A stretch of DNA of 64,000 nt from contig JAJCXN010000019.1 in assembly GCA_029263415.1 (NCBI GenBank), positions 1-64,000 on the forward strand, read 5' to 3'. Of this stretch, positions 16,643 through 22,082 are shown piece by piece (within the stretch, counting starts at the first letter, position 1; every line of letters starts with the position of its first letter). Source of the stretch: Acidobacteriota bacterium. Its GTDB lineage: Bacteria; Acidobacteriota; Thermoanaerobaculia; Multivoradales; Multivoraceae. Both the position numbers and the translations under genes were made by a program. The notes under the pieces are model-generated. The model did not search any database. It was not told where the DNA came from and worked only from the letters and a program-made list of their open reading frames with translations.

Positions 16643-17713
16643 CTACCCGCTCCCAACCTTCGCCTGCACCCGCGCAACGATTTCACCCATCCGCGCCGCC
16701 ACCTCTTCGGGCACCCGGAACGTACTCATCCACAACAGTACGTCGAGATCTTCAGCCGTCGCACTCCTCCGACCGCGCAACAACGCCCGACCGCGGATCA
16801 GCTTGACCGCCTTGACCAAAAAGCTGCGATCGGTGAGCAGTGAGTTCGACTCATCGCACTCTTCATCGGTGACCAGCGTACGCAACACCTCCAAGAGTCC
16901 GGCACGCACGCCGTCTGGCACCTCGACGTTCGAGAGCTCGTCATAGGCGCGATCGAGATCTTCGCGATCGATGACCGCACTCGGTTCGGGCCGTTCTTCG
17001 ACGTCGCCTGACGCGAATCGATCGATCAGCTCCCGCGCGGCTTCGCCGCCGTCGTGAATCAAGCCACGAACCCGCAGCTGCAAGGCAAACCGGTCGAGGT
17101 TCGCGGGATCAAGAGGCTCGTTGTAGTACTCGTCGTCCATCGGGTTGCCGGTCGCGATCGCGGTCAACAGTGGAATCTCGTCGCTGCCGAAGCGACGCTC
17201 ATTGAGCAGGCGCAGCAGCACGTTGAGCGCTTCACCCGGGGCCCGCGAAATGTCGTCGAGTACGCAGATCTCGGCGACCAACAGACCGCCCGGTTCAATG
17301 CGTTGGTGAATGCGTTCGCCAATCGACGCACCGGGCGCTTCTGCGGCCGGCGGCTTTGCATCAGACGGCCCTGCGTCCGGCGCCGGCGCCCCCCCTGGAC
17401 CTGCAAGCAGCTCTTCTGGGGCTTGCTCGATCGGTCGGCGCTCGAGCACGATGTCACCGACCAACTCCGCAAGCCGCGTGTCGCGGTGCAACTGGTAAAA
17501 GAAGAACTCGAGCCCGCAACCGCTGGCAACAATCTCAGCCAGCCGGGTCTTTGCGGTTCCTGGCGGCCCTTCGATGTAAATGTGCTCGCGACATACGAGA
17601 GCCAGCAGCAACGCTTCTTTGACGTCATCGTGCGCTACGACATGCTGATCCAGCAGTCGTGCGAGGCCAGCTAGTGGAGTGGACGGTTGCTCTGCAACAG
17701 GTTCGGCGGTCAT
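16643..17713 (-). CDS. MoxR/RavA-type AAA+ ATPase
   Basis: 356 residues. Walker A GPPGTAKT at 49-56; Walker B region ICVLDDISRAPGEALN at about 149-162; sensor 1 IATGNP; then DPANLDRFALQLRV and the lid with sensor 2 and LLTDRSFLVKAVKLIRGRALL. This is the MoxR family, chaperone-like ATPases that usually work with VWA-domain proteins to insert cofactors or mature enzymes. The second Walker B acidic residue is Asp, not Glu. A Pro/Ala-rich insert occupies about 97-131. It is related to the AAA half of the gene at 20054 (shared HRDTR and RAPGEAL). It diverges from the dehydrogenase gene at 18224 across a hairpin-repeat array. Confidence 0.9.
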   Translation of the reverse strand: MTAEPVAEQPSTPLAGLARLLDQHVVAHDDVKEALLLALVCREHIYIEGPPGTAKTRLAEIVASGCGLEFFFYQLHRDTRLAELVGDIVLERRPIEQAPEELLAGPGGAPAPDAGPSDAKPPAAEAPGASIGERIHQRIEPGGLLVAEICVLDDISRAPGEALNVLLRLLNERRFGSDEIPLLTAIATGNPMDDEYYNEPLDPANLDRFALQLRVRGLIHDGGEAARELIDRFASGDVEERPEPSAVIDREDLDRAYDELSNVEVPDGVRAGLLEVLRTLVTDEECDESNSLLTDRSFLVKAVKLIRGRALLRGRRSATAEDLDVLLWMSTFRVPEEVAARMGEIVARVQAKVGSG

Positions 17714-17864
17714 TCTCTTCGAGAGTCTCTAGTGATTCACACGTTTTGATTCAAAAAGGCGATTCAACCGCGAGGTCCTCGCCAAACGGGCCAACCGAGA
17801 GGTTCAAATCGGCACCGCACTTTATCGGGTTGCAAGTTCGGACCCTCTTGATCCTAGGGATGGC

Positions 17865-17994
17865 GCAGCAAACCTGCGTCTAGCGATCCCGCGGCAAACC
17901 CGCGTCTAGCGATCCCGCAGCAAACCTGCGTCTAGCGATCCCGCGGCAAACCCGCGCCTAGCGATCCCGCGGCAAACCCGCGCCTAGCGATCCC
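17865..17994. repeat. Five 26-bp tandem repeats forming covarying hairpins
   Basis: Units start at 17865, 17891, 17917, 17943 and 17969. Each contains a short inverted repeat around CAAAC. Units 1 and 3 have GCAG...CTGC, units 2, 4 and 5 have GCGG...CCGC, so both arms change together and pairing is kept. The rest of the unit is (T/C)CTAGCGATCCC. The array lies in the intergenic region between the divergent MoxR and dehydrogenase genes, upstream of both. Confidence 0.9.
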
Positions 17995-18223
17995 GCGAAA
18001 ACTCCGCCCAGGCACTACAATGACCCTCCCGCCCCACGAATAAGACTCCCCCATAACCCTAAGGCGCAAGGCCTCATTGGTGATCAAGCCAATTGCTATG
18101 GGGGAGCCAACGACACTGTACTGCGAAATCCATCTTCCGATCAGTCGATCTCGTACACCTGAACAGGTCCCAACCACTAGCTCTTAGGCGCGCGACCTGC
18201 TCGTGAGCATGGAGGAGATTCGA

Positions 18224-19972
18224 ATGCCTCAACCGTCTGCAACCAAACAGCTCTTCGTGTCTCTCGCAGCCGCTGCAGCGCTCACGAGCCTCGTCTTGGC
18301 CGCGGCACCGGCGACCGCTCGGTCTAGCCAAGCCACTCAGCCAGGCCAGCCAGCTCAGGCACCACAGTCAGCCCAGCCAGCGCAGCCGGCCCCACAAGTC
18401 GACTTTGCGACCGACATCCAACCCTTCTTCGCCGCTTATTGCCACGAATGCCACGGCCCCGAACGCGCAACGCGAGAGGCCAATCTAAGGCTTGACGAAA
18501 AGCAGTTCGCCTTCCGCGACCTGGGCGCTGGCTACCACACCATTGTGCCCGGTGATGCCGAAGGCAGCGAGGTGTTCGCGCGCATCAACTCAGAGTTCGC
18601 TGAAGATCGCATGCCGCCCTACGCGACCGGCATCGAGCTCACCAAGGACGAGATCAACCTCGTTAAGCGCTGGATCAACGAGGGTGCCAACTGGCCCGAC
18701 ATCGACCCGAACGCCGCCAACACGGCTGCTGAAACCGCAACCACCGCCGCCCGACCGCGCCGCGGCATGTCTGGCATTCCCGCGATCAGCCTCCCCGATC
18801 AACCGATCATCATCAACACGCACGCCATCCCCGAAGTCCGCCTCGTGGTCCTCGCCCGCGGTCTCTCACACCCGTGGTCGCTGGCGTTCCTGCCCAAGGG
18901 CGACATGCTGATCACCGAGCGCAGTGGCAATCTGCGCATCGTGCGCGACGGCGTACTGGTTCCCGCGCCCATCTCAGGCATCCCCACCGACATCATCGCC
19001 AAAGGACTCTCGGGCATGATGGAAGTCGCGATCCATCCCGATTTCGAGAACAACGGCTACGTCTACTTGACCTATACCCGCGACCTCAAAGAGGCTGGCG
19101 GCACCGTGGCCCTGGTGCGGGGCGTGCTCGAAGGCCTAACGCTCACCAACGTCGAAGATGTGTTCGTCGCCGAACCTTGGGTGAGCGACGATCAAGCTGG
19201 AACAACCCAAGGCGGCAACTCCTCAGCGACCGCTTCAGCGCGACTCGCCTTCGCTCCAGATGGCAAGCTGTTCATGACCATGGGTGGCTCGTTCGGCGTC
19301 GAGCGCGACGATGGCACCTCGAGCTTCTTTGGCAACGGTATGTTGGCGCAAGATCCCAACAGTCACGCGGGCAAGTTGCTGCGCCTCAACGACGACGGTA
19401 CAGCGCCTAAAGACAACCCGTTTTATGGCCGTCCGGACCACAAGCCGGAGGTCTACTCAATCGGTCACCGCAACCAGATGGGGCTCGTTTTCCATCCAAC
19501 AACTGGCCAGCCCTACGCCACCGAGCACGGACCCCAAGGTGGCGACGAGCTCAACGCAATTGAACCCGGTGGCAACTACGGGTGGCCGGTGGTTTCCTAC
19601 GGCCGTCACTACGACGGACCACGCATCGCTAAGCAGTTCTGGCGAGAAGGCATGAAGGAGCCGCTGGTCTACTGGGTACCTTCCATCGCGCCCTCTGGGC
19701 TCGCGTTCTACACCGGTGAGCAGTTTCCCGAATGGAAAGGCAACCTGTTTGTTGGCGCGCTGATGGAAGGCCGGATTCCGCGTACAGGTCACCTCGAGCG
19801 CATCATCTTCAATCCAGCGGGGGAAGAACTCGGCCGCGAATCGCTGCTCACCGATCTCCGGCAACGCATCCGCGATGTCAGGCAAGGTCCAGACGGCTTG
19901 ATCTACATCCTCACTGAGGAAGCACAGGCCGCCTTGATCCGCTTAGAACCGGTGCCCGCGCCCGCTCCTTAG
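18224..19972 (+). CDS. Secreted c-type cytochrome domain fused to PQQ-type sugar dehydrogenase propeller
   Basis: ATG 18224 follows GGAGGAG by 6 bases; the N-terminus is a signal peptide (LFVSLAAAAALTSLVLAAAP, cleaved near ATA). After a Gln/Pro/Ala linker, residues 66-165 are a Planctomycete-type cytochrome c domain with heme motif C-H-E-C-H and a distal MPPY methionine. Residues 200-575 are a six-bladed GSDH/aldose sugar dehydrogenase propeller: GLSHPWSLAFLPKGDMLITER, HPDFENNGYVYLTYT, GHRNQMGLVFHP, HGPQGGDELNAIEPGGNYGW. The expected catalytic His in the 'GxHxGGRL' segment is not seen (GGNSSATASARLAF). It would oxidise sugars or alcohols in the periplasm and pass electrons to the heme, if active. 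Confidence 0.85.
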   Translation: MPQPSATKQLFVSLAAAAALTSLVLAAAPATARSSQATQPGQPAQAPQSAQPAQPAPQVDFATDIQPFFAAYCHECHGPERATREANLRLDEKQFAFRDLGAGYHTIVPGDAEGSEVFARINSEFAEDRMPPYATGIELTKDEINLVKRWINEGANWPDIDPNAANTAAETATTAARPRRGMSGIPAISLPDQPIIINTHAIPEVRLVVLARGLSHPWSLAFLPKGDMLITERSGNLRIVRDGVLVPAPISGIPTDIIAKGLSGMMEVAIHPDFENNGYVYLTYTRDLKEAGGTVALVRGVLEGLTLTNVEDVFVAEPWVSDDQAGTTQGGNSSATASARLAFAPDGKLFMTMGGSFGVERDDGTSSFFGNGMLAQDPNSHAGKLLRLNDDGTAPKDNPFYGRPDHKPEVYSIGHRNQMGLVFHPTTGQPYATEHGPQGGDELNAIEPGGNYGWPVVSYGRHYDGPRIAKQFWREGMKEPLVYWVPSIAPSGLAFYTGEQFPEWKGNLFVGALMEGRIPRTGHLERIIFNPAGEELGRESLLTDLRQRIRDVRQGPDGLIYILTEEAQAALIRLEPVPAPAP

Positions 19973-20053
19973 CTAAGCGCCCCACGCAAGCCGGCTCTTA
20001 GGTTCGCCGGGTCGGGTTGGATCGGGCGTTGTACCGGCGTTGGACAGGGCACC

Positions 20054-22045
20054 CTAAGCCGGCGCGGCAACCATCGTTGCTTCGGCAACATCACCCGGAG
20101 AACCAGGAGCACCAGGAGCACCAGGAGCACCAGGCAGGGCACCACGCTCAGACAGCACCAAACTGCCACTCCGCTCGATCGCTTGAAACCGCAACCCCGA
20201 TGTCTCGTGCGAAATCGAGTCGAGTACCGGCGGACTCGCACCATCGCCGACGAACACCGTGTGCAAACTAACGCCAAGCTTCTTGGCCAAAGCTCGCTCG
20301 GCGCGGACCTGCGTATCCCCTAGGATCGGCAACCCATCGGTGAGCATCACCACATGCCGGTTCGCCCCGCGCCTGCCGCGCAGGGCATCCAAGGCCATGC
20401 GCAATGGAGCTTCGTAGTTGGTCTGCCCCATGGGACGCGCCTCACGCACCAACTGATTGAGCTGCTCGTAGCGACGATGTAGCAAGCGGCCCCCAAGTAT
20501 GCGTGGAATCGCTCGCTGATGAAATTCGAGGTAGCCCACCCGCATCCGTCGTCTTGCAGCTGCCCGCACCAAGCCGCAGATCAACTCACTCGCCCAATCG
20601 TTACGGAAGCCCGCCATGGAGCTCGAAACGTCGCGAGCGATGACCACCGCGCCACCGAGCGTTCGGCGCCTGCGCCGCAGCACGCGCGGCGGCCCAGCCA
20701 AGGTGCCGTCGACCAACAACAGTGCATCCAGTGGGTCCGCGTCAATCAACTCGTCAAATCGACGCAACGGCCTGAAACCGCGCGGCTGACCGCCTGGGTC
20801 ATCGTCCAGATCGCTACGTCCACGATCCAGCCGACCCTCAAACGCCTTGATCAACGGCTCGACATCAGCGGGACGCGGTTTGCGACGACGAGGCGGCAGC
20901 GCTGGCGCTTCGGGCAACTCCGCCTCGGTGGTCGGCGCACCCGGAACTTGTCCGGGCAGAGCATCGGTCATCACCTGCTCGTTGGCACCATCGGCAGTCA
21001 TCGGCAGTCCCTGATCGCCCTCCTCGCTGGTGCTCATAGACTCGGGTGAAGGCACTGCGATCGCTTCGTGCAAGACCTCTTCGAGCACGTCTAACAATCC
21101 TTGTGGCAATCGCTGCGCAACCATCACGCGCAACACCCGAAGATCTTCAACACCGACCACCGCAGCACCACGGACAGCGGCATGCGCGCGCAGCACTTTG
21201 GGCAAGACGGCGCCAAACACCCGATCCGATAGCAGCGCCCGACCATCGCCACCGCGAGTCGCTGCGCGCACGCGTGCTGCCAGCGCCAGGACGGTCTCTC
21301 GCACGGAGGCCTGCACGTCTTCAGGATACGGAATCCGCGTGACCCAGTCCTGCAACCGCAGCCGCTCCGCCGCGTTCAGCTCTGCCAGCCGAACCCCGGG
21401 CTCAGCTCGCTCGAGACTCGAATCCAAGACCGCGCGACACAGCCCCCATCGCCGCGCGGTCACCAGACCCTCCATGCGTACCTGAAGCGCAAATCGATCC
21501 AGCTGACTGGGCTCCAACGGATCGACAGCAACCCCCTCGTGCCCGACCTCGCCACCCGGTAACGCCATGGTTGCCACCGCCGTCTCCAGTGGCAAGCGCA
21601 TCATCCCGCCTCGACCGAGATCTACAACCCGGCTGCCCAAAAGCTGCAGCAGTGGCGCCAACGCTTCGCCGGGCGCTCGTCCCAGATTGTCTAGCACCAC
21701 CAACTGAGCCTTCAGCATCCGACCCGGTTCAAGATCGAACGACAGCCGCTCCGAGTTCCCGTGCACTCGACGATGAAGATTCACTTCACCCAACAGATCC
21801 TCACGTCGCGTATCTCGATGAAACGAGCACAGGTGAACGTCCGCGCCCATCGCCCCGAGCCCTGCTTCTGCGAGCAAGCTCTTGCCGCACCCTGGAGCCC
21901 CCTCCAACAGCACATGCTCTCGAGCGAGCACGCCAATCAGTACGGCCAGCTTCGCCTGCTCTTGGCCCACGAGTACAGCGTCCAAGCGCCGACGCAAGCC
22001 TTCCACTAGGTCCAGCGCAAAAGAATCGATCCGCTCAGTCGTCAT
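20054..22045 (-). CDS. MoxR-type AAA+ ATPase fused to VWA domain (ChlD/BchD-like)
   Basis: 663 residues from ATG 22045 (the frame reaches TTG 22069). Residues 1-330 are a MoxR AAA+ module: Walker A GAPGCGKS at 49-56, Walker B LVVLDNLGRAPGEAL (Asp-Asn, not Asp-Glu). After a Pro/Arg linker, a VWA domain follows from about 470: MIDAS motif DVSSSM, a Thr in GQTNYEAPL, and LTDGLP, so the metal site looks complete. The layout is that of magnesium-chelatase D-like and MoxR-associated proteins. The C-terminus has a Gly-Ala-Pro triplet repeat encoded by a 9-bp DNA repeat. A small gene lies 37 bp upstream in the same direction. Confidence 0.85.
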   Translation of the reverse strand: MTTERIDSFALDLVEGLRRRLDAVLVGQEQAKLAVLIGVLAREHVLLEGAPGCGKSLLAEAGLGAMGADVHLCSFHRDTRREDLLGEVNLHRRVHGNSERLSFDLEPGRMLKAQLVVLDNLGRAPGEALAPLLQLLGSRVVDLGRGGMMRLPLETAVATMALPGGEVGHEGVAVDPLEPSQLDRFALQVRMEGLVTARRWGLCRAVLDSSLERAEPGVRLAELNAAERLRLQDWVTRIPYPEDVQASVRETVLALAARVRAATRGGDGRALLSDRVFGAVLPKVLRAHAAVRGAAVVGVEDLRVLRVMVAQRLPQGLLDVLEEVLHEAIAVPSPESMSTSEEGDQGLPMTADGANEQVMTDALPGQVPGAPTTEAELPEAPALPPRRRKPRPADVEPLIKAFEGRLDRGRSDLDDDPGGQPRGFRPLRRFDELIDADPLDALLLVDGTLAGPPRVLRRRRRTLGGAVVIARDVSSSMAGFRNDWASELICGLVRAAARRRMRVGYLEFHQRAIPRILGGRLLHRRYEQLNQLVREARPMGQTNYEAPLRMALDALRGRRGANRHVVMLTDGLPILGDTQVRAERALAKKLGVSLHTVFVGDGASPPVLDSISHETSGLRFQAIERSGSLVLSERGALPGAPGAPGAPGSPGDVAEATMVAAPA

Positions 22046-22082
22046 GCAAGCACAATACCGCGGACCCAAGGCGCCGCCGACA

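Follow-up and report, generated by a model that had tools for sequence, protein, structure and literature searches.

Five abutting 26-bp repeats between divergent MoxR and dehydrogenase genes of an Acidobacteriota bacterium are probably a young, neutral and lineage-specific non-coding minisatellite, whose quasi-palindromic unit would have been amplified in a new spacer. The array lies in a window of 64,000 nucleotides, which is the whole stretch of DNA that we analysed. The two arms of the hairpin carried by each unit change together, and a single paired change suffices for all five units.

Structure of the array and chance expectation

TRF reports an indel-free tandem array with a period of 26, 5.2 copies and 93% matches at 17864-17997, within which five abutting 26-bp units run head-to-tail over 17864-17993. 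An earlier note had described five 26-bp repeats between divergent MoxR and dehydrogenase genes, which TRF and the gene positions bear out. Its span of 17865-17994 corresponds to a real array, but the true frame lies one base further left. Each unit reads CGCRG-CAAAC-CYGCG and then YCTAGCGATCC, with a 5-bp stem and the loop CAAAC. The units and two possible degenerate neighbours, none assigned to a strand, are as follows.

17838-17863, no strand: possible degenerate unit 0; its tail CCTAGGGATGG resembles YCTAGCGATCC (weak, P ~0.01-0.025)
17864-17889, no strand: repeat unit 1, CGCAGCAAACCTGCGTCTAGCGATCC; type A hairpin (CGCAG-CAAAC-CTGCG), column 16 is T
17890-17915, no strand: repeat unit 2, CGCGGCAAACCCGCGTCTAGCGATCC; type B hairpin (CGCGG-CAAAC-CCGCG), column 16 is T
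17916-17941, no strand: repeat unit 3, same sequence as unit 1
17942-17967, no strand: repeat unit 4, CGCGGCAAACCCGCGCCTAGCGATCC; type B hairpin, column 16 is C
17968-17993, no strand: repeat unit 5, same sequence as unit 4
17994-18019, no strand: possible sixth unit in degenerate form, CGCGAAAACTCCGCC..., whose stem is broken (weak, P ~0.03-0.06 relative to random positions in the window)

Units 0 and 6 were suggested as relics by eye, and with such weak support they were kept out of the evidence. No reading frame spanning the array stays open, and the array is thus non-coding.

Three columns vary among the five intact units: column 4 (A, G, A, G, G), column 12 (T, C, T, C, C) and column 16 (T, T, T, C, C), the last of which directly precedes the constant CTAGCGATCC. 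Columns 4 and 12 are stem partners that co-vary in every unit, so that no arm change disrupts the stem. The division of the arms proposed previously, with A/T in units 1 and 3 and G/C in units 2, 4 and 5, therefore stands, but the arms are 5 bp long (CGCRG/CYGCG) rather than 4. Likewise, the joint change of the arms is confirmed by columns 4 and 12, whereas the constancy claimed for the remainder of the unit overlooked column 16.

A survey of tandem repeats covered 1.25 Mb of the 6.9-Mb genome (~18%), a draft assembly in 60 contigs, at periods of 15-80 and at least 2.8 copies, and in it the array ranks third by score. Five tandem copies far exceed chance. The hairpin stem itself is unremarkable, since stems of 5 bp or longer are seen in ~13% of 26-mers taken at random from the window and in ~16% of shuffled units. 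When three changes are placed at random, two of them hit paired stem positions with P = 0.046, and these also compensate one another with P = 0.023. Among 26 indel-free arrays with at least three copies, four have a stem of at least 4 bp, and paired changes occur in the present array alone; the three other stem-bearing arrays in the sample show exclusively unpaired changes. The paired change is slightly unusual, and the array a mild outlier (P ~0.02, a value unadjusted for the number of arrays inspected).

The same survey shows that other minisatellites are present in this genome. A second 26-bp hairpin-like array (L110 145-225, corresponding to G000:C56 ~100,145-100,225; 3.1 copies, 72% matches) adjoins another tandem repeat, and was rejected as a relative of the present one because it has a different unit and unpaired arm changes. 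Elsewhere, a 15-bp array with 35.7 copies of CTTCTTCTTGGCCAC (L102 6383-6918) lies in an open frame and is probably a protein repeat.

Genomic setting and distribution of the unit

The array stands upstream of both divergent genes, a position where regulatory sites belong and which counts against a minisatellite without function. Three genes define its setting.

16643-17713, minus strand: MoxR-type AAA+ ATPase gene (bpMoxR PF20030, AAA_5 PF07728); the array is 150 bp from its start codon
18225-19972, plus strand: PSCyt1 + glucose/sorbosone dehydrogenase gene; the ATG at 18225, after GGAGGAG, is the likelier start
20054-22069, minus strand: MoxR-VWA gene, located immediately upstream of the MoxR gene in relatives

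The longest open reading frame of the dehydrogenase gene begins with GTG at 18203, and the likelier ATG start codon is 231 bp from the array. In family relatives, MoxR-VWA directly precedes MoxR at 21 of the 22 MoxR loci fetched (the remaining one, L023, ends at a contig end). Examples of this adjacency are L018-L022, with a gap of ~40 bp in L018, and L083; the G002 sequence was also examined. Where those relatives' genomes have the dehydrogenase gene, it is sited elsewhere. Within 16643-22069 of the window, the dehydrogenase gene and the array-bearing spacer separate MoxR from MoxR-VWA, and because they stand between genes that are normally neighbours, the array lies in lineage-specific DNA. 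The dehydrogenase leader region also contains a perfect 10-bp inverted repeat (CTCCCCCATA/TATGGGGGAG, 18046-18055 and 18097-18106, 41 bp apart), and folds slightly better than shuffled sequences (z -1.15).

The earlier note had called for a search of the whole genome for further units, and none was found beyond the array at up to three mismatches in the 6.9 Mb. The unit was also absent from 148 other genomes of the class (one genome per species), from viral contigs, in which the exact core was searched, and from phages. A DNA similarity comparison of the intergenic region with 59 relatives gave a single 30-bp match, outside the array; these relatives were likewise searched at one genome per species, with the genus represented by one genome. 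The hairpin alone, at up to two mismatches, has 135 matches genome-wide (70+65), five of which are the array copies, versus 122 (62+60) in the reversed control, and thus no genome-wide excess of single hairpins was found above control. The CTAGCGATCCCG part is not enriched genome-wide either (79 versus 98 in the control), and five 5-bp stems with a CAAAC loop occur in 1.25 Mb, the number supplied by the array itself.

A scan of the genome collection for two consecutive hairpins of this kind returned 18 places, none with the CTAGCGATCC part. Six of these, read by eye, apparently belong to one common coding stretch (..LQTREQHIRREKA.. reading), which may encode glycine dehydrogenase, and the remaining places look by eye like other coding DNA or repeats with different units and spacing. 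A match in a Burkholderia stagnalis plasmid is a 15-bp GCGATCCCGCGGCAG repeat, different from the 26-bp unit.

Regulatory and mobile-element explanations

A protein-binding ladder and an RNA element had both been proposed for this array, and neither gains from a unit that is unique to one genome among those searched and whose single hairpins are not enriched genome-wide. In the first case, each inverted repeat CGCRGCAAACCYGCG would be a putative operator, and its repetition would allow the divergent MoxR and dehydrogenase promoters to be controlled cooperatively. We consider this unlikely. The inverted repeats do lie in a divergent intergenic region, 150 bp and 231 bp from the two start codons, and the paired arm changes preserve their dyad symmetry. 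However, the related single sites at other promoters that accompany operator arrays were not found above the control level, and the unit was not found in relatives. Moreover, units repeated every 26 bp are separated by ~2.5 helical turns (10.5 bp per turn), which would put adjacent units on opposite faces of the helix, and a search specific to sigma-70-like promoters found none in 17500-18400. A more particular version, in which a new divergent control region took shape in this lineage as the dehydrogenase gene split the MoxR pair, a hairpin unit was amplified in it and hairpin symmetry was selected for a putative lineage-particular regulator, would be decidedly improbable. Judged from sequence, nothing was found that would support a local regulatory role for the array.

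Alternatively, the dehydrogenase (or MoxR) mRNA could include the array in its leader, where a row of hairpins would affect stability or translation. Each unit alone folds into a hairpin, at -4.6 to -5.8 kcal/mol as DNA, and the centroid structure of the plus-strand RNA shows five hairpins. Yet the folding of the plus strand is barely unlike that of shuffled sequences (z = -1.19), and the minus strand folds no better than shuffles (z = +1.01). No Rfam family was matched at the array, the window's sole match being a tRNA elsewhere. Structured RNAs can also be recognised by several independent compensatory changes, whereas the array offers one paired pair of columns for which one paired change is enough. 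An RNA element is thus very unlikely. These results also weaken selection for the stem, which the earlier note had entertained: the covariation may be a single event, and the folding is not notably better than that of shuffled sequence.

A third explanation is that the array is a relic of a REP/REPIN-like mobile palindrome, or of the event that placed the dehydrogenase gene between the MoxR-type genes. The array is part of the DNA between genes that stand side by side in relatives, three Y1_Tnp transposase genes are present in the genome, and CGTC is found at the stem foot in units 1-3. Units 4-5, however, carry CGCC at this position, and nothing suggests that the array, which starts 150 bp away from the start codon of MoxR, marks a putative junction. 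REP elements tagged with GTAG or CGTC resemble the array in being short intergenic palindromic units, with CGTC following the hairpin in units 1-3. They are dispersed in many genome copies, whereas full matches to the present unit are the five array copies only, in a single, undispersed place. Similarly, they have a constant unpaired tag, and the stem of CGTC REPs is 8-9 bp (PMC3733652), but the array has a 5-bp stem and an inconstant tag, half of which is inside the stem. We therefore regard a relic of this kind as extremely unlikely.

Origin of the paired change

The minisatellite explanation agrees with the usual description of such loci as a unit of 10-100 bp present in three or more head-to-tail copies. 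Like bacterial intergenic minisatellites and VNTR loci, the array has head-to-tail 26-bp units of high identity that are non-coding and restricted to a single place in a single lineage. It differs from them in that its unit holds a 5-bp inverted repeat and its versions differ by a paired change. Such loci also vary in copy number among strains, and the comparison here covers one genome of the genus. CRISPR arrays also have direct repeats with internal dyad symmetry, but here the units abut and there are no unique spacers.

In the history that we infer, with its duplication order, template switching and neutrality, the spacer would have arisen once the two MoxR-type genes had been separated by the dehydrogenase gene together with its upstream DNA. 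Slipped-strand replication or unequal recombination could then have multiplied a 26-bp stretch with a chance 5-bp inverted repeat, and one unit would have gained the paired G-C/A-T change in its stem. This change might have come from hairpin (quasi-palindrome) template switching, in which one arm is copied onto the other. Template switching can produce compensatory changes in both arms of a stem (PMC8794818), and in E. coli it operates at quasi-palindromes (PMC7202029). The array resembles its products in that both members of a stem pair have changed and still pair; here the process would be read from one event. Alternatively, two ordinary transitions may have led to the same result via a G-T wobble.

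Duplication of the A-B dimer (units 1-2 to 3-4) would then have given A-B-A-B, and a column-16 change in the last B, followed by duplication of unit 4, would have given A,B,A,B',B', by which both versions spread. The column patterns AGAGG, TCTCC and TTTCC fit a dimer duplication and a one-unit duplication. The earlier suggestion that whole palindromic units were copied is thus supported, as the array needs one paired change, then 52-bp dimer and one-unit duplications. Since the order of units requires no more than this, the covariation counts as one event.

Among tandem copies, paired arm changes should therefore not be read as independent support for a selected stem, since duplication can multiply one event. 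Should strains differ at this locus, it might be of use as a marker for typing, or as a naturally preserved trace of template switching.
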